A DNA stretch of 28,003 nt, taken from the IMG/VR virus record IMGVR_UViG_3300037635_001935, positions 1 through 28,003 of that record; one strand, 5' to 3'. Made by a program: the position numbers and the translations under genes. The stretch comes from a virus. Shown one piece after another: positions 485 to 21,830 of this stretch. Numbering within the stretch: the stretch's first letter is position 1; each line of letters opens with the position of its first letter. The notes below the pieces were generated by a model, which saw only the letters and a list, made by a program, of their open reading frames with translations, had not been told where the DNA came from and searched no databases.

Positions 485-518
485 AAAAGAATTTAAAGCG
501 ATTTTGGACGCGATTTGA

Positions 519-602
519 ACGCGATTAAAAGACCGATTTGAGACGCGATTAAAAGACCGATTTGAGACGCGATTAAAAGACCGATTTGAGACGCGATTAA
601 AA
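519..602. repeat. 24-bp tandem repeats, three and a half copies
   Basis: Three exact 24-bp units reading ACGCGATTAAAAGACCGATT plus TGAG lie head to tail at 519-542, 543-566 and 567-590, followed by a 12-base partial unit to 602. There are no spacers. The ACGCGATT core recurs in the 11-bp repeats at 3545-3604 and, inverted, in the 23-bp repeats near 3891. The period is close to two helical turns, so the copies would face the same side of the DNA, as in protein-binding arrays. Confidence 0.9.
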
Positions 603-688
603 CGAATCTGAGAATCTGATTTTATGATTAAAAGAATTAATACTTAGTTATTAGCTCAACTTTAAACGATTGAGACGAAAAAATAAAT

Positions 689-716
689 TTGACAAGATTA
701 AGCTTTTAAACATGAT
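689..716 (+). promoter_or_regulatory. Candidate sigma70-like promoter for the plus cluster
   Basis: A perfect TTGACA at 689-694 is followed after 16 bp by CATGAT (711-716), four of six matches to TATAAT. Transcription would start near 723, about 35 nt before the chosen start of the first plus-strand gene (757). This placement also argues against the longer TTG start at 670. The -10 match is weak. Confidence 0.35.
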
Positions 717-756
717 CGGCTTTTCATTTATTAATAACTCAACAAATAAAACTAAA

Positions 757-1134
757 ATGAAAATAATAACTAATAGAAAATTTAGCGACAAAACACAAAA
801 GTTTTACAACTTTGAAGGCGACATAAGAAGCGTTAAAACTTTAGAAGTTGTAAGACCGAACGCGAGTAAAAGCTATCGACTAATTACGAATGTTAACAAA
901 TTGAAAAGTACTATTAGAGCTGGAGAGTATACTTTTCTTGGTGGCTATAAACTTTTCTTTATAACAAAAGACGGTGCGTGTTTATCGTTTAAAGCTGTAA
1001 TTGAAAATTTAACAAGTGTTTACGATAGCATTAAAAATAATATTGATGATGGTTGGCAAGTTATCGGCTTAGGCTGTTCAAATGAATTAGATGAAGAGCT
1101 TTTTTGCGATCACACAAACGAATCTTTAAATTAA
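757..1134 (+). CDS. 125-residue hypothetical protein, first gene of plus cluster
   Basis: The frame is open from a TTG at 670, but I take the ATG at 757: it has the same leader (ACTAAAATG) as the next gene, and the upstream part would cover the promoter-like TTGACA. The product is basic at its N-terminus and mixed alpha/beta, with no signal, membrane segment or known motif that I recognise; the C-terminus has two cysteines (GLGCSNELDE, LFCDHTN). Base composition is markedly more AT-rich than the late genes. It leads seven closely spaced small genes that end at an intrinsic terminator, so it is probably the first gene of one transcript. Function unknown. Confidence 0.6.
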   Translation: MKIITNRKFSDKTQKFYNFEGDIRSVKTLEVVRPNASKSYRLITNVNKLKSTIRAGEYTFLGGYKLFFITKDGACLSFKAVIENLTSVYDSIKNNIDDGWQVIGLGCSNELDEELFCDHTNESLN

Positions 1135-1145
1135 TAATAACTAAA

Positions 1146-1439
1146 ATGAATAACGAAAATAATAAAATGATTAAAACACATCTTTTACAAGTTGATGATT
1201 GGCATGATGGAGAAAGCTGGTCATGGAATAATTGGTTCAAACTTGAAGAAGGCATTTATTTGCACGAATCAACTTTGAATAGTTCAAGAAAGCTTTTAAG
1301 GTTTTGTCGCGATAAACTCGATATCTTAACAAATGAATCGAAAGGTAAAATGCAAATTGAAGATGACGGGTACAATGTAAATATTCAACTTCGAAACGGA
1401 CAAACTCTTTTTGCTTTCTGTTATGGAGAATACATCTAA
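1146..1439 (+). CDS. 97-residue hypothetical protein, tryptophan-rich N-terminus
   Basis: ATG at 1146 is preferred over 1104 because 1104 lies inside the upstream gene and 1146 has the shared leader CTAAAATG. The protein has a tryptophan- and aspartate-rich stretch (VDDWHDGESWSWNNWFKLEE) around residues 15-34, then an amphipathic segment and a beta-like C-terminus (YNVNIQLRNGQTLFAFCY). No family recognised. It is 11 bp after the preceding stop and 1 bp before the next ATG, so it belongs to the same transcript. Soluble, cytoplasmic by appearance. Confidence 0.6.
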   Translation: MNNENNKMIKTHLLQVDDWHDGESWSWNNWFKLEEGIYLHESTLNSSRKLLRFCRDKLDILTNESKGKMQIEDDGYNVNIQLRNGQTLFAFCYGEYI

Positions 1440-1440
1440 A

Positions 1441-1629
1441 ATGAAAAACGAAATAAATAAACAAGCGGAAATAATTAATCTTGAATCGAATCTCTACGCC
1501 TTAAAACGATATTTAAAATATATCGACAATGACCGCGTCAACGGATGGCAAAGAGATGTTTGCTTAGTAGAAGTACAAACGCGAGTAAATACAATGATTC
1601 GATCATATCAAAAACTCTTTGACGCATGA
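1441..1629 (+). CDS. 62-residue helical hypothetical protein
   Basis: Start ATG at 1441, one base after the stop of the upstream gene, again with a CTAAAATG leader; an in-frame ATG at 1411 would run through that gene. The product (MKNEINKQAEIINLESNLYA...) is charged and likely almost wholly alpha-helical, compatible with a short coiled coil. Its stop overlaps the next start (ATGA at 1626-1629), indicating coupled translation. No family recognised. Confidence 0.6.
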   Translation: MKNEINKQAEIINLESNLYALKRYLKYIDNDRVNGWQRDVCLVEVQTRVNTMIRSYQKLFDA

Positions 1630-1784
1630 AAAACGAAAAAGATTTAACAATGGCTGAATGGTTTGAACGCGAGGAAAACGAATTAAGACGATCAACTAAA
1701 TTTCGCTTGCAACTGCTAATGGTTCCGTTTGTCGCGGTGTTTGGGTGGATCATCTTGTTGGCTTTAATGATTAAAAACAACTAA
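1626..1784 (+). CDS. 52-residue single-pass membrane protein
   Basis: ATG at 1626 overlaps the preceding stop by ATGA. The N-terminal half (MKNEKDLTMAEWFEREENEL) is highly charged and helical; residues about 28-48 form one hydrophobic helix (LQLLMVPFVAVFGWIILLAL), followed by a short MIKNN tail with lysine. The topology would place the charged domain on one side of the inner membrane. Small tail-anchored membrane proteins in accessory phage clusters can act in superinfection exclusion or lysis control, but there is no motif that assigns this one. Confidence 0.6.
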   Translation: MKNEKDLTMAEWFEREENELRRSTKFRLQLLMVPFVAVFGWIILLALMIKNN

Positions 1785-1791
1785 CATAATT

Positions 1792-2082
1792 ATGAACATT
1801 AAAATAAACGCAAGGGAAGATTCAATGGGTTGTTTAACATTAACGCCAATTAAACAATCTTACATCGATCAAATCATCGAATATTTAAAAGAGTTTAATG
1901 TCGATTCAGACGGATCCGTTTTCATTCAATCCGATTATGACATTGAAAGCTTTTATAACGATTGCAACTCGCGACAAAGGAAAGATATTCAATCTGGTTG
2001 GGGCTCGACTATGTTATTTGATGACTGGACATTTTTAACAATGATCGGTTGGGACGCGAGCGAAGGGTTGGAGCTTAAATAA
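1792..2082 (+). CDS. 96-residue hypothetical protein
   Basis: ATG at 1792 is 7 bp after the previous stop with an AT-rich leader (CATAATT). The product has an alternating helix/strand pattern: a beta strand at residues 1-20, helix SYIDQIIEYLKEF near 23-35, an acidic loop, and a tryptophan-containing C-terminus (GWGSTMLFDDWTFLTMIGWD). No signal or membrane segment. I do not recognise the family. Fifth gene of the plus-strand cluster. Confidence 0.6.
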   Translation: MNIKINAREDSMGCLTLTPIKQSYIDQIIEYLKEFNVDSDGSVFIQSDYDIESFYNDCNSRQRKDIQSGWGSTMLFDDWTFLTMIGWDASEGLELK

Positions 2083-2084
2083 TT

Positions 2085-2249
2085 ATGAAAGAAGGCGACA
2101 CAATAGAATATAAAGACGACAACGGCGACAAGTTGAAAGGTAAAGTTATATTAATATTTACTTCTTTATGCGGTCATCAATGCGTTCACATCAATAATTT
2201 CTTTCAAACTCGATTTGTTAAGGATGTAAAATTGATTAAAAACAATTAA
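2085..2249 (+). CDS. 54-residue small beta-type protein
   Basis: ATG at 2085 lies 2 bp after the preceding stop, and the frame ends with TAA at 2247-2249. The protein begins MKEGDTIEYKDDNGDKLKGK and ends FVKDVKLIKNN, a pattern of short strands around polar turns that resembles small SH3-like or KOW-like barrels; that fold is inference. It carries CGHQC at residues 29-33, two cysteines and a histidine that could bind metal or form a disulphide. Spacing to both neighbours supports a shared transcript. Confidence 0.55.
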   Translation: MKEGDTIEYKDDNGDKLKGKVILIFTSLCGHQCVHINNFFQTRFVKDVKLIKNN

Positions 2250-2259
2250 CAACGATATT

Positions 2260-2445
2260 ATGGAATACTTAATAGGAAATAAAAAAATAGTCGATTGGGG
2301 TTTATTTGCGGAAGTAGAAACCGAGCAAGATAAATCACAACAAATCGAGATTGTACTACCTCAAAAAATACAACAGCAAATATTTGATATTATCGAAGCG
2401 AACATCGACAAGGCAAAGGTTATCGAGGCAATAGCTCAGTTCTAA
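2260..2445 (+). CDS. 61-residue hypothetical protein, last gene of plus cluster
   Basis: ATG at 2260 follows the previous stop by 10 bp with leader ACGATATT. The N-terminal part (MEYLIGNKKIVDWGLFAEVE) looks like strands; residues 30-60 are helical and glutamine/isoleucine-rich. No recognised motif. A rho-independent terminator begins 22 bp after the stop, so this gene closes the plus-strand operon. Confidence 0.6.
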   Translation: MEYLIGNKKIVDWGLFAEVETEQDKSQQIEIVLPQKIQQQIFDIIEANIDKAKVIEAIAQF

Positions 2446-2466
2446 AAACAAACAAACAAACCAATT

Positions 2467-2501
2467 AAGCCCGTTTTAACGCGATTAGAACGGGCTTTTT
2501 T
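2467..2501 (+). terminator. Intrinsic terminator of the plus cluster
   Basis: A 13-bp stem (arms 2467-2479 and 2485-2497, one G-U pair), loop CGCGA, runs directly into TTTTTT on the plus strand (2496-2501). It lies just after the last gene of the plus cluster and is the clearest terminator in the window. Confidence 0.9.
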
Positions 2502-2565
2502 GTGGACGCATATAAAAGGATGGGTTTGCGATTGAAACGCGTTTTAAGGGCTTATATCGAGACAC

Positions 2566-2594
2566 AAAAAAACCACCGCGTTTTAAACGATGGT
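2566..2594 (-). terminator. Intrinsic terminator of the 3370-2618 minus genes
   Basis: On the minus strand, arms ACCATCGT (2594-2587) and GCGGTGGT (2579-2572), with two G-U pairs, enclose a 7-nt loop and are followed by a T run (2572-2566). It faces the plus-strand terminator 64 bp away, insulating the two convergent gene groups. Confidence 0.7.
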
Positions 2595-2598
2595 CTTA

Positions 2599-2620
2599 TT
2601 GTTGGTTGGTTCGCGTTTTA
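2599..2620 (-). repeat. Gene-end repeat TAAAACGCGAACCAA, copy 1
   Basis: A 22-bp element whose first three bases are the stop codon of the 2618-2809 gene. It matches 2817-2838 at 21 of 22 positions; the only difference is a C/A change. Confidence 0.75.
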
Positions 2621-2809
2621 AATTAAATTCGTTTTATTAAAGCGTTGCATTGTAGCAAGAATAAAATTCTTTGGTAAGCGTTGCCAATTCGTAATCGCGT
2701 TGCCATCAATGAGTTGTCGTTGGTAAAAATGGTAACAAGCGGATTGTTTGACTTGTACAAGCTTTGAAGCGTTGAAAGGACATTGTATCGAGATTATGTT
2801 TTTATTCAT
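2618..2809 (-). CDS. 63-residue hypothetical protein
   Basis: ATG at 2807-2809, preceded by an A/C-rich leader (CAACAACCAAACA) and no Shine-Dalgarno sequence. The product (MNKNIISIQCPFNASKLVQV...) is basic, with two cysteines at residues 10 and 25 and a central CYHFYQRQLIDG segment. No family recognised. It is the last of three minus-strand genes and precedes a terminator. The stop is embedded in a 22-bp repeat. Plausible real gene from operon position; function unknown. Confidence 0.5.
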   Translation of the reverse strand: MNKNIISIQCPFNASKLVQVKQSACYHFYQRQLIDGNAITNWQRLPKNFILATMQRFNKTNLI

Positions 2810-2816
2810 TGTTTGG

Positions 2817-2838
2817 TTGTTGTTTGGTTCGCGTTTTA
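2817..2838 (-). repeat. Gene-end repeat TAAAACGCGAACCAA, copy 2
   Basis: Second copy of the 22-bp element. Its TAA is the stop of the 2836-3078 gene and it forms most of the leader of the next gene. This points to duplication of gene-border modules or a conserved processing or initiation signal. Confidence 0.75.
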
Positions 2839-3078
2839 AGCTTGTATATTGATTTCTTCAGTTGTTTCAATCCAAATCGTTGCACCGCAAGCCAATGGCG
2901 ATTCAGGAGCGTAACAAAGTCGTACATTATCGCCTATCATAATATGATTAGCTTTGATATTGTCGCTCGTTGTTTTAATCGTCAATACCGCGTCATTAGA
3001 TCCATTCTTGCGATTGGCTTTGATGATATGCTGGTTAACATGAATGCGTTTTATATATCCTTTGTTGAGTTCTTTCAT
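2836..3078 (-). CDS. Conserved 80-residue phage protein (IHVNQH family)
   Basis: The product contains IHVNQHIIKANRKNG near residues 12-26 and PLACGATIWIET near residues 61-72. From memory, these two blocks characterise a widespread small family in phages and other mobile DNA whose members share HVNQH-IK and LSCGA-VWIET motifs; its role is unknown to me. Between the blocks is a basic, beta-rich middle (AVLTIKTTSDNIKANHIMIG). No membrane segment. The plus-strand frame over the same bases is rejected because this conservation pattern supports the minus strand. Leader CCAACCAAATAACGAAA lacks a Shine-Dalgarno. Confidence 0.75.
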   Translation of the reverse strand: MKELNKGYIKRIHVNQHIIKANRKNGSNDAVLTIKTTSDNIKANHIMIGDNVRLCYAPESPLACGATIWIETTEEINIQA

Positions 3079-3106
3079 TTTCGTTATTTGGTTGGCTTGT
3101 TATTAT

Positions 3107-3370
3107 TTAACAGCATAGATCGCCAAAACTAATAGTCTGTGTGCTGTGGAATTTGGTGAGTTCAAGCTCTTTTTTAAATTCTTCAGCATGGTCATGAGTA
3201 AGTAGAGCATATAAGTCTTCCCACTCCGTTTGCCAGTCCATCATTCTATAGCTTAAGTATTTCTTACCTCCAGTTGCTTCACTTCTCCAAGCATCGCAGT
3301 AAACATGACCATATTTGGAAATGATGGTGGTAAGGTAGGTGTATCTTTTATATAATTTTTTAAATGTCAT
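3107..3370 (-). CDS. 87-residue hypothetical protein
   Basis: ATG at 3368-3370 with an A/C-rich leader (CAAACAACAAAACA). The N-terminus is basic and aromatic (MTFKKLYKRYTYLTTIISKY), with YCDAWRSEATGGKKYLSYR following at about residues 24-42, and an amphipathic helix HAEEFKKELELTKF near 61-74; it ends in CC. No family recognised. First gene of the three-gene minus-strand unit that runs to the terminator at 2566-2594. A 14-bp inverted repeat 32 bp upstream could be an operator. Confidence 0.55.
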   Translation of the reverse strand: MTFKKLYKRYTYLTTIISKYGHVYCDAWRSEATGGKKYLSYRMMDWQTEWEDLYALLTHDHAEEFKKELELTKFHSTQTISFGDLCC

Positions 3371-3401
3371 TGTTTTGTTGTTTGATTAGTAGTTAAAAAT
3401 G

Positions 3402-3415
3402 TGAAGCTTGCTTCA
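3402..3415. promoter_or_regulatory. 14-bp inverted repeat, operator candidate
   Basis: TGAAGC-TT-GCTTCA has 6-bp perfect arms around two bases. It lies between a TTGACA (3434-3439, minus strand) and the start of the 87-residue gene, where a repressor could act. The short arms make a chance match possible. Confidence 0.3.
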
Positions 3416-3544
3416 ATCAAAATTCGTCAACATTGTCAAATCCAATATTCTTATAACACGCTACAACCCGCTTAAATACTAGTGAAGATTTTTTTTCGAG
3501 GGATTGGCGTTTTGAGCGAGTTAAAGCGATTTAAAGCAAATATT

Positions 3545-3604
3545 GAGACGCGATTGAGACGCGATTGAGACGCGGTAAGAAGGCGATTAAAACGCGATTA
3601 AAAC
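3545..3604. repeat. 11-bp tandem repeats with ACGCGATT core
   Basis: GAGACGCGATT occurs at 3545-3555 and 3556-3566 with a partial third copy at 3567-3575; then GCGATTAAAAC occurs twice in tandem at 3583-3593 and 3594-3604. The period of 11 is one helical turn. The core matches the 24-bp repeats at 519-602 in the same orientation. Confidence 0.85.
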
Positions 3605-3777
3605 GAAAAAAAAAAACAATAGTAAAGACGAATGTACGCTATTGATAACACATTATCATTAATAAGCTTTGATTTGCTTTACACGAGTAGCACAAACAAC
3701 GATTTACAACGCATTCTATAGTCAATGCGATAATATATCACTTGCGGTGGTAGTGTTTAAAAGGCATTACTTGTTTA

Positions 3778-3799
3778 ACCGTGTCCATACCGTGTCCCA
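3778..3799. repeat. 11-bp direct repeat ACCGTGTCCAT
   Basis: ACCGTGTCCAT (3778-3788) is followed immediately by ACCGTGTCCCA (3789-3799), nine identical bases followed by one mismatch and an A/T difference. GTGTCCCA-type repeats are sometimes arm sites of tyrosine integrases, but no integrase is in the window, so the role is open. Confidence 0.5.
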
Positions 3800-3890
3800 C
3801 AGGAAAAAATCGACTACCCAATGGGGGGAAATTCGACCGCCCGCTATAACGTAAGACCATTCACACTTTTTTACCAAAACTTTTTAAGCG

Positions 3891-3956
3891 CGTTCTTATC
3901 GCGTCTTTAACGTCGTTCTTATCGCGTTCTTAACGTCGTTCTTATCGCGTCTTTAA
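3891..3956. repeat. 23-bp tandem repeats, nearly three copies
   Basis: CGTTCTTATCGCGTCTTTAA plus CGT at 3891-3913, a variant with CTTT changed to TCTT at 3914-3936, and a third partial copy from 3937. Read on the minus strand each unit contains GACGCGATAA or AACGCGATAA, the same core as the other repeat families but inverted. The last copy overlaps the stop codon of the 75-residue gene. Confidence 0.85.
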
Positions 3957-4180
3957 AACGCCTGTTCACAAGTGTCACTGTCGTCTTCATCTTCGTCCCA
4001 GAAGTTCTCATCGACTTCAAACTCGACTGTGTCGTCACTTGGATCAACGATATAACTCATCTTAACGATGTCTAACACACCGACTATAGTCGCATGATTA
4101 AGGTCAAATTCGTCACGAAAGCGCATCACAACGTTTTGAAGCTCGTTACAAAATGCATCTGTTTGATCGTTGATATCCAT
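3953..4180 (-). CDS. 75-residue acidic protein, first gene after the terminase
   Basis: I take the ATG at 4178-4180 (MDINDQTDAFCNELQN...). The frame extends to 4309, but that extension covers the palindrome and promoter-like elements and is unusually rich in arginine, tyrosine and isoleucine. Residues 10-45 look helical, with ATIVGVLDIVKMSYIV at 30-45; this segment resembles small conserved phage proteins carrying a VVGVLE-VKM motif, from memory. The C-terminus (VDENFWDEDEDDSDT) is strongly acidic, as in DNA mimics, but that role is only a possibility. Position matches T7 gene 19.5; sequence similarity to it is not evident. Confidence 0.65.
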   Translation of the reverse strand: MDINDQTDAFCNELQNVVMRFRDEFDLNHATIVGVLDIVKMSYIVDPSDDTVEFEVDENFWDEDEDDSDTCEQAF

Positions 4181-4285: not shown

Positions 4286-4307
4286 ACGCGAAACAGACGT
4301 GTAGTAC

Positions 4308-4604
4308 ATCGCAAGTTAGTACTGATGATTTAAAAACAAAAACAACAAACACGTGTAAGCTTATAAACGCTTTTTTAATACACGTTATATCGTCATTCAT
4401 ACTTAACATTAAACCTTGTTTATTCTGGTTACAAAGATTGTATGTCGTCGGTTATATCGCAAGTTACTAGTACTGATGATTAAGAAAGGTACTAGTAATA
4501 AATCACGAGTAAGCTTTAACGAATCGTTTAACAACGCCTTTATATCGTCATACATACGTAACGTTAAACCGCGTTAAGATCGATTACATTGTATGTCGTC
4601 GTTT
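4308..4604. repeat. Diverged tandem duplication, period about 148 bp
   Basis: Unit 1 (about 4308-4455) and unit 2 (about 4456-4604) both start ATCGCAAGTTA, share GTACTGATGATT, GTAAGCTT, TATATCGTCAT, TTAAACC and end TTGTATGTCGTCG, with substitutions and indels between. Unit 2 has an extra segment that creates a perfect 10-bp inverted repeat, TTACTAGTAC (4464-4473) and GTACTAGTAA (4489-4498), around a 15-nt loop. The duplication ends within a few bases of the terminase stop codon. Confidence 0.8.
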
Positions 4605-4614
4605 ATATCGCGTG

Positions 4615-6303
4615 TTAAAGCGTAGCCATCCAAGTAGTACTACGAGCAGATTTATTGTTGATCTTGAAAGCTGCGTTTTTAAAACGTTCTAATTCTTCAT
4701 CAAGTAGTTCAGCTTTTCTATCGTTGATTTTCAAGTCCGCGTTTACAGCCATTTGTTCGACCCAGTATCCACAAGCCATACAAAGCGCATCTAAACGGTC
4801 GTCTTGAAGAAGAGCGCCTTTATCGCGTGTTAAACGCGTTAGTTGGTACATCAACATGTACCTAGATTGTTGCTCAATAGGATACGTCATAGCGCTTTGA
4901 TAATCGTCTTTTATGACCCTTGAATCGACTATTAATTTGTGTCTATTAAGTATCGGTTCAAGCGTGTCTACTATACGTTTTTCTTTTTGTATGTGGTGTC
5001 TTACTTCGTTGATAGTAACAGGATACACGTTGTTTAAGACGGGCTTAAAGAGTTCGGTAAACATCCCGTCACCCATGTTCGACTCAATAATGATTTCGTT
5101 GACCTTGTATTGCTTTGCGATACGAGCTAGTTCTTTCAACACGTTATCACCGTACCCACCTTTAATACCGTTACACGCGTGAACGAACAGTTGACCGTTA
5201 AGCATCTTAACGACGCTATAAGCGGTTTCATCTTTACCACGACCAGCTGGGTCAATAGACATGACTGAACCTGTGTACTCGATCAGATCGCCGTTGGTGT
5301 CCAAAGGACGAAAGTATTTATCGCCGTTAAAGCCTACGTTAGGAAGGTCTTCGGTTATTTGTTGTGGACCAGCGGCATAGACATACTTCTCGTACGCCAG
5401 GTCGTTGTCGAGTTCGGTAACGATTAAATCGTTGATCTTTAACGGGTAACGATCAGCGTCGCTTAATCGCGGGTTAAGCATGAACTGAAGAGCGTACCCG
5501 CTTCGTCCGTAGGCAAGCCGTCTTTCTTCGAGATCAAGGTCGGTAAAGCGTAATGGTTCTGTTGTCTTACCGATATTGTCTTCCGTGGTGTTCTCGACGA
5601 TATAAGGCGATACAGCGCCGTTATAAACCGTTTGGACGTGATCCAATGGTATGTACTCAGATTGCCATATACGGGCGTTATAACCGCGTTCACGAAGCTT
5701 AGAATAGATACTGTCTTCGCATTGAGGTGTACCTAGAAAGATGATACGACTACTGTCTAGTGGTTTAACAATCGCTTCAAACTCTTTGACTTGTTCATCG
5801 AGCTTATCGCGCATTCCTTGGGTAGCGGAGTTGTTCGGTACTTCGATGTCATCAGCTACGATTATGTCAGCACGTGACCCAGTAAGCTGGGACGTGATAC
5901 CAAGTGACTTGACCGAAGGCGCGTGTGAAGCGGGTGCTAAACCTACGTCAAAGCTTATCTTACTGAAACGTTGACCGTCACGTGGTTTAAGACCTTGTAA
6001 AACGGGAATGTCGTTAATGATTTTCAAGGTAAACGTTGAGAAGTCGTCGGATCGCGATTTAGACGCCGACACAACAAGTATGTTCTTGGTAGGGTCTAGT
6101 AGTAGTTGATGTACGACATAAGCACTACATATCCACGATTTACCGACGCCTCGAAACGCCATGATGACGGAACGTTTTGGACCGCCTTGGATGAAGTTAG
6201 CGATGTCGTATTGGAGAGGTGTTGGATCGGGAAGACCCAAGTGTTTCCAAACGACGAACAAGAAGTTACGAAAGTCCCGAAGTTCGGGTGGTACGTTACT
6301 CAC
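4615..6303 (-). CDS. Terminase large subunit (T7 gp19-like)
   Basis: This is the packaging motor that cuts concatemeric DNA and pumps it through the portal. The 562 residues (T7 gp19 has 586) show a Walker A, AFRGVGKS at 49-56, a Walker B, IIVADDIE at about 147-154, and a C-terminal RNase H-fold nuclease with acidic residues in MSIDPAG (D351), EIIIES (E407) and DDRLDAL (D501-D505). The start is GTG at 6301-6303, overlapping the small-terminase stop as GTGA, so translation is coupled. It is the last of the long late genes, and its stop abuts the 148-bp duplication. The shared TerL/TerS order and size make the T7-like assignment firm. Confidence 0.97.
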   Translation of the reverse strand: MSNVPPELRDFRNFLFVVWKHLGLPDPTPLQYDIANFIQGGPKRSVIMAFRGVGKSWICSAYVVHQLLLDPTKNILVVSASKSRSDDFSTFTLKIINDIPVLQGLKPRDGQRFSKISFDVGLAPASHAPSVKSLGITSQLTGSRADIIVADDIEVPNNSATQGMRDKLDEQVKEFEAIVKPLDSSRIIFLGTPQCEDSIYSKLRERGYNARIWQSEYIPLDHVQTVYNGAVSPYIVENTTEDNIGKTTEPLRFTDLDLEERRLAYGRSGYALQFMLNPRLSDADRYPLKINDLIVTELDNDLAYEKYVYAAGPQQITEDLPNVGFNGDKYFRPLDTNGDLIEYTGSVMSIDPAGRGKDETAYSVVKMLNGQLFVHACNGIKGGYGDNVLKELARIAKQYKVNEIIIESNMGDGMFTELFKPVLNNVYPVTINEVRHHIQKEKRIVDTLEPILNRHKLIVDSRVIKDDYQSAMTYPIEQQSRYMLMYQLTRLTRDKGALLQDDRLDALCMACGYWVEQMAVNADLKINDRKAELLDEELERFKNAAFKINNKSARSTTWMATL

Positions 6304-20765: not shown

Positions 20766-21830
20766 CTATTTCTGTAATTCGATAGCACATTCAGGACGGA
20801 GTATTCCGTGACCCATCGCGTACTTCGCAATAAACAGAGTTCCTTGGCGCTCCATCTGATACTCGGACTCAGTCGCAAGATCAAGAAGCTTAACAGTTCC
20901 AACAGCCGATGGGTGAGCAACGATACCAAGCGAGTTGGTGAAGTTACCATTGTACCCTACGCCGCCTGAACCGAACACATCGTTAGAAGATGCTCCGTCA
21001 CCTGTAGAGGTGGAAGACAAATCAGTCGATGGAAGGTGAGTAGACTTATAGATGCTGATACCAGCAACCTGAGCAATAGAACCAGAAGCAAGTGATCCAG
21101 AACCACCAACGTCTTGATTAGACGCAGAAGTCGAGATAACGAGCGATCCGCTACCACCAGTGATAAGCTTGTAATACTCTTGAGGACGAAGAACACAGAA
21201 TCTTCCATCGGAAGGAACGTCGTTCTCATCGAGCTTTTGAGCGGCGGTAAACAACGCGGCAACAAGCTCTGCTCCTGTTGGATCAGAATTGTCGGAGTCG
21301 TCAGAACCGTCAGCGGGTGTTCCCATCGCGTTAGCAGATACGTCAAGTACTCCACCAAGCTTTCCACCTGTAACGTTAGCTGTAGCTTCACGAGCGGCGG
21401 CAATAAACACTTTAGCAATCGCTTCATCGAAACGTTTAGCAAGCGCTTTACCAAGCTCAGAAGCATAGACGGAACGTATATCGTAATGATTTTTTACATC
21501 GTCGATAGAACTGAGGAATGTCGAAGAAAGAAGTACGTCGTCAATAGTGATGACTTTCTCGTTCTTCTTGATGTCGCTCAAGTAAGAGTTACCGCTGTCA
21601 GCAATGTTCTGTCCAGGAGTATAGTAACTAGCGGAAGCAATACCTGTAACAGGAAATTGAGCGCTCTTACCATTCTCGATAGTACGGATCGTATGCAAAG
21701 GTTTGAAGATATTATTTTCTTCAAAGGTCGTTAATATTTCGCCAGCAAACTTCTTCAAGAAAAGGGCATCAGCCGCTCCACTTGAATTAATCTGACCGAC
21801 GCGTGAGGGAGTTGTATCTCCATTAGCCAT
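20766..21830 (-). CDS. Major capsid protein (T7 gp10A-like)
   Basis: The 354-residue protein (T7 gp10A has 345) builds the HK97-fold shell. Its N-terminus has the family run FAGEILTTFEENNIFKPLHT (28-47) and ENGKSAQFPVTG (52-63), followed by DDVLLSSTFLSSIDDVKNHY and ALAKRFDEAIAKVF. This is the only late gene in the window with both a strong Shine-Dalgarno sequence (AGGAG, 9 nt before ATG) and a 110-nt leader carrying a promoter-like element and a hairpin, which suits a protein needed in hundreds of copies. A hairpin follows the gene. Confidence 0.97.
   Translation of the reverse strand: MANGDTTPSRVGQINSSGAADALFLKKFAGEILTTFEENNIFKPLHTIRTIENGKSAQFPVTGIASASYYTPGQNIADSGNSYLSDIKKNEKVITIDDVLLSSTFLSSIDDVKNHYDIRSVYASELGKALAKRFDEAIAKVFIAAAREATANVTGGKLGGVLDVSANAMGTPADGSDDSDNSDPTGAELVAALFTAAQKLDENDVPSDGRFCVLRPQEYYKLITGGSGSLVISTSASNQDVGGSGSLASGSIAQVAGISIYKSTHLPSTDLSSTSTGDGASSNDVFGSGGVGYNGNFTNSLGIVAHPSAVGTVKLLDLATESEYQMERQGTLFIAKYAMGHGILRPECAIELQK

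Follow-up and report, generated by a model that had tools for sequence, protein, structure and literature searches.

A counter-transcribed block of small genes near the TerL gene of T7-like marine phages, read as a probable reversed early operon

Phages of the Autographiviridae (T7-like phages) usually, though not by definition, carry their genes on one strand. This layout is not found in the stretch of DNA analysed here (the window), a 28,003-base viral record that ends within the early region and in which seven small genes are opposed to all the rest. The question raised by this locus is whether the opposed genes form an acquired accessory unit, as a preliminary description had proposed, or belong to the early region of the phage itself.

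The window contains T7-like packaging and structural genes in late order, namely TerL (phrog_38), a head-tail adaptor (phrog_449) and the major head protein (phrog_267), along with tail proteins (phrog_446/457) and internal virion proteins (phrog_805/6651). Judged by TerL, the closest named phage is Ayaqvirus S45C18 (AP013544; 63%), followed by the CRP-group Roseobacter phages (about 60%). A close relative, L007, extends past the end of the window and carries a P-loop kinase-like gene (a name taken from a sequence motif only), a tyrosine-recombinase-type integrase gene and then an RNA polymerase gene; the lineage is therefore probably temperate-capable, and the phage of the window presumably possesses the RNA polymerase and integrase genes of its relatives. 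Temperate features have been reported for related T7-like phages (PMC10134795; PMC11092137), and in the related Roseobacter autographiviruses the early region has been termed a host takeover module (PMC11092137). A prophage search with TerL against bacterial genomes returned only distant matches (39-56%, Pelagibacter being the best), and so no host was assigned. Elsewhere in the window, an imperfect duplication of about 150 bases lies downstream of TerL (4305-4617), with double matches in L003 and L009 as well. A 169-aa frame (20957-21466, minus strand) is contained entirely in the capsid gene (20766-21830), which shares its strand but uses another reading frame; this 169-aa frame has no PHROG match and is probably due to chance. 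The sequence upstream of the capsid gene suggested a phage promoter of the T7 type, but this guess yielded no set of sites above chance.

The seven genes and their products

Seven consecutive plus-strand frames, all beginning with ATG, occupy positions 757-2445 as the preliminary description had it, separated by -4 to 11 nt, and every other recognisable gene of the window is on the minus strand (the forward direction of the genome). Within 757-2445, ATG frames of at least 50 aa cover 98% of the plus strand and 24% of the minus strand; when the bases of this segment are shuffled, such frames cover 3% on average and 32% at the maximum. The block is also, as had been claimed, more AT-rich than the late genes (32.8% GC, against 43.0% for 4615-27908), but composition alone does not single it out, since the adjoining forward small genes are AT-rich too (36% GC). 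Selection was assessed for the families of g2 to g6 and for two families found in the blocks of relatives, of 92 and 298 aa. Median dN/dS was 0.08 for g4, 0.07 for g5, 0.07 for g6, 0.12 for the 92-aa family and 0.14 for the 298-aa family; g2 gave 0.09 from a single pair, and the differences in g3 were too few for a useful value. No frame-breaking mutation, the kind of evidence that had been named as telling against the block, was seen in the sequences tested. Judged by frames that stay intact in relatives and by dN/dS of about 0.07-0.14 in the well-sampled families, the seven frames are real genes, and these values indicate that purifying selection acts on the well-sampled families.

The earlier statement that no product is recognisable was nearly right. 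None has a tested function, but g1 (757-1134, 125 aa) matches the family phrog_18452/18238 with E about 1e-12, and g6 (2085-2249, 54 aa) is phrog_14219-like (6e-6). Homologs of g1 run in the forward direction in L064 and L066; a scan of viral contigs for close relatives with g1 confirmed none, and its AlphaFold prediction failed (pLDDT 37). The products of g2 (1146-1439, 97 aa) and g3 (1441-1629, 62 aa) are 91% and 97% identical to proteins encoded in the counter-transcribed block of L004 and in the block of L086, respectively, and g7 (2260-2445, 61 aa) has so far been found only in the window. The single membrane protein of the preliminary description is g4 (1626-1784, 52 aa; family 52-59 aa), with a charged N-terminus and one transmembrane segment at the C-terminus, and its gene is the only one present in all eight complete blocks, the window included. 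The 96-aa alpha/beta protein g5 (1792-2082) occurs in six of the eight and is forward in L022, L045 and L210-L216. Its structure model is confident (pLDDT 90.8); a Foldseek comparison with the PDB found no relative (best E 0.58), and BFVD yielded just one confident match, a 96-aa sequence that is 88% identical. Five of the eight complete blocks contain g6, which is forward in L064, L072 and L076.

Searches of Pfam, PHROGs, PADLOC and the PDB with the products of the block and of its relatives assigned no activity. The only PADLOC matches were weak ones to g1 and the 298-aa protein (E 0.005-0.009), from a library of defence rather than anti-defence models. None of the blocks yielded a match to a repressor or DNA-binding family, and a DNA search with the block among named phages gave no match. 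Two families recur inside annotated terminal repeats of large Caulobacter and Klebsiella phages: g1 has such homologs in CcrPW, CcrSC and Klebsiella phage Muenster, the 298-aa protein in Ccr5, Karma, phiCbK and CcrBL10. RHEph01, a T7-like phage, has the 298-aa family at its left end, in the forward direction. Small membrane genes comparable to g4 occupy similar places in L116, L119, L039, L060 and L064. Roles in anti-defence, exclusion or takeover are plausible for these products.

The block adjoins small forward frames on the minus strand, of which m8 (2618-2809) and m10 (3107-3370) have no relative that could be found. The protein of m9 (2836-3078) is 98.7% identical in L060. The idea of a recent exchange with L060 was dropped because synonymous sites between the two are saturated (dS about 2.4), and m9 appears to be under unusually strong constraint for a small early protein. 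Another small frame on the minus strand, at 92-175, encodes 27 aa of membrane type (MDIITIFSLAIIFIVGFGLLYWEKGDR) and directly precedes another early gene. In most relatives the stop of this small frame overlaps the start codon of the gene that follows; its sequence is kept across divergent phages, and it is easily missed by gene callers.

Promoters, terminators and leader regions

The promoter candidate that had been noticed ahead of the block, TTGACA-N16-CATGAT at 689-716 on the plus strand, heads the block in nine phages, the window included; its -10 element, CATGAT, is not the textbook TATAAT. A divergent partner on the minus strand, TTGCGT-N16-CATCGT at 374-401, points to the early genes and to the RNA polymerase gene. 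The pair is present in nine of nine phages of the clade, with the partner 250-344 bases from the cassette -35. A pattern consisting of a TTG-type box, 16 bases and a CA-type box fits only two sites in the 28-kb window, 689 (+) and 401 (-), a count that by itself proves nothing because shuffled windows average 1.2 matches. The weight lies instead with the occurrence of the pair in all nine phages, the conservation of its cassette member, and a spacing and -10 element like those of forward promoters. Indeed, the forward early promoters of L004, L007, L012, L022 and L118 have the same 16-base spacing and a similar CATGAT-like -10; in the window itself, the pattern is not shown by the promoter ahead of m10. 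By its architecture, the cassette promoter is a putative host-type early promoter.

Between the divergent promoters lies an array of 24-base units, GACGCGATTAAAAGACCGATTTGA (507-603), and such arrays are flanked by the two promoters in all nine phages. Similar units recur near 3547-3615 and within the terminators, and 10 of the window's 11 copies of the word ACGCGATT fall within 508-3600. The units could be regulator sites or packaging-end repeats, both of which are possible.

At its other end the block has the strong terminator that had been described, a 13-pair hairpin with a T tail at 2467-2497 on the plus strand (-20.3 kcal/mol, z -5.0). It is faced by a terminator of the forward early genes at 2569-2597 on the minus strand (z -4.3). 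An Rfam search gave only sub-threshold matches, sited at the two terminators, and a tRNA search found none.

A conserved leader, region A (360-500), contains the divergent partner promoter and is related to part of region B (3350-3640), which is conserved, non-coding and upstream of the first forward early gene and includes the repeat units at 3547-3615. The long non-coding stretch in which most of region B lies, between m10 and m11 (3371-3952), is partly conserved in distant relatives, with about 3803-3963 aligning with L028, L025, L039 and L044. This stretch is a candidate packaging end, terminal repeat or origin.

Contents and orientation in related phages

A comparison of the same locus in related phages, which the preliminary description had proposed, revealed a conserved block with differing contents. 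The complete unit is found in eight phages (the window, L004, L007, L104, L106, L107, L109 and L086), and L112 and L009 each provide one end of it. All eight retain the divergent promoter pair, the counter-transcribed block and the two facing terminators, while the number of genes per complete block ranges from 3 to 8, drawn from a common pool. Families of 92 aa, 91 aa, 298 aa, 125 aa and 57 aa, and DUF7249, come and go; a further scan with the 91-aa family added nothing.

In more distant relatives, families of the pool also occur in the forward direction. In L022, L045, L064, L072, L076, L115, L118 and L211 they lie mostly in the interval that separates TerL from the gene for the RNA polymerase, and L066 and the others of L210-L216 carry them forward as well. 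Where several families can be compared, gene order is the same forward and backward. Thus, L022 and L045 carry the 92-aa family, the 57-aa family and g5 forward in the order found in L086, and L064 has g1, a small membrane gene and g6 in that order. Outside the window's clade, where all nine phages have one orientation, the backward arrangement is seen in L039/L191, L116, L119, L120, L190 and L192, and a tree of the neighbouring kinase gene requires at least two changes of orientation. The early genes of L115 (forward) and L116 (backward) are colinear at 70-76%, with the cassette aligned in inverted orientation, and a similar terminator is present in L115 on the forward side. The evidence for this inversion is a single metagenomic contig of 4 kb, in which an assembly error is possible.

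These comparisons bear on the idea of an acquired accessory unit. The block is indeed counter-transcribed, modular, conserved and equipped with its own promoter and terminator, but a simple recent acquisition is unsupported, given that the layout is common to seven related contigs, the promoter is of the group's forward type, and the families run forward elsewhere. On comparative grounds, the block is not a one-off insertion and is better read as a native part of the early region, reversed in orientation and showing a high turnover of genes.

Reading of the block and its rivals

The best reading, which we would hold at odds of roughly two in three, is that the block is a reversed early accessory operon, driven by the host polymerase, near the junction of the terminase end with the presumed left end of a probably temperate autographivirus. 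The reality of the genes, the anatomy of the operon, the conserved promoters and terminators, the two orientations and the turnover of contents are all read directly from sequence; the early timing, the use of the host polymerase, the place relative to the genome end and the function of the products are inferred. A position at the first-entering end, in particular, is suggested by comparison with RHEph01, LUZ100 and CRP-113. The host RNA polymerase would start at the divergent promoter pair, with one promoter serving the early genes and the gene for the phage RNA polymerase in the forward direction and the other leading backward into g1-g7. The backward transcript would halt at the terminator that meets that of the forward small-gene unit, an arrangement proposed to keep the two transcription arms from colliding. 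The cargo would be a rotating set of small takeover, exclusion or counter-defence proteins, with the g4 membrane protein as its fixed member. The resemblance of regions A and B suggests that the reversal may have been accompanied by a duplication of the early leader, and the direction of change would likewise be from forward to reversed.

The richness in AT, the high gene turnover and the opposite strand could all be expected of a recently acquired island of foreign origin that has no relation to the early genes native to the phage. This is very improbable, since conservation of the layout throughout the clade already goes most of the way to refuting it; relatives keep the same bounds, the early promoter architecture is shared, and homologs are found in early regions that read forward in this phage group. 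Only slightly more credible, and still highly unlikely, is an invertible segment, actively switched by recombination so that populations would contain both orientations. The existence of both orientations with conserved gene order, the homologous but inverted cassettes of L115 and L116 between colinear flanks, and the presence of short repeats in both orientations are in keeping with switching. The nine phages of the window's clade, however, all have the same orientation, no long inverted repeats were found around 689-2600, the opposite orientation in the L116 group comes from the single 4-kb contig, and only two changes satisfy the kinase tree. Most of the early region, in which a recombinase gene might be sited, falls beyond the window. 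In a broader and rather doubtful suggestion, the orientation of a whole early accessory operon would serve marine temperate T7-like phages as a regulatory trait open to evolution and perhaps to switching. If true, running the same ordered pool forward or backward would alter its mode of transcription and its timing relative to the RNA polymerase gene.

The block might alternatively be linked to lysogeny, with the prophage expressing immunity or superinfection exclusion (g4) and the divergent promoters and repeat array serving as an operator. The presence of a tyrosine-recombinase-type integrase gene close to that of the RNA polymerase in L007, L106, L109 and L112, the arrays between divergent promoters in all nine phages, the temperate features of related T7-like phages (PMC10134795; PMC11092137) and the single-pass membrane nature of the constant member, g4, all point this way. 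Against it are the absence of repressor and DNA-binding families from every block, the likeness of the cassette promoter to forward early promoters, and the occurrence of pool families in the terminal repeats of large phages, and we consider this explanation unlikely.

On the reading as a reversed early operon, the locus is a recurring and well-bounded site in marine phages for the swapping of small, probably host-directed genes. It provides a list of candidate takeover or counter-defence proteins, among them the fixed membrane protein g4 and the 96-aa g5, which has no solved-structure match. The one-direction rule of T7-like genomes is broken in a whole lineage, with orientation having changed at least two times in the group. 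The architecture has good support from the sequence comparisons, and the openly licensed papers searched do not describe it for this phage group.

Several known systems resemble the locus in part. In SPO1, the small early takeover genes occupy the terminal part of the genome (PMC6873191). This takeover module and the terminal-repeat genes of large phages are clusters of small early genes at the genome end, a place and timing that are probable for the block as well; SPO1 is, however, another kind of phage. LUZ100, RHEph01 and the marine CRP roseophages share the succession of TerL, early genes, regulator or integrase, and then RNA polymerase, and LUZ100 also has host-type promoters for its early genes. 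LUZ100 and CRP-113 differ in that their early protein genes are all forward in the stretches viewed, whereas in RHEph01 three genes near this junction are on the minus strand (469-714, 42238-42510 and 42494-42991). A close parallel is the T7 early (class I) region of Autographiviridae, where small unknown genes near the left end, with promoters of the sigma70 type and bounded by a terminator, precede the phage RNA polymerase gene, as the block is predicted to do. The difference is that here one arm is oriented against the genome, with a divergent promoter at its head and facing terminators at its end. We regard the system as a modified T7 early region and not as something new in kind.
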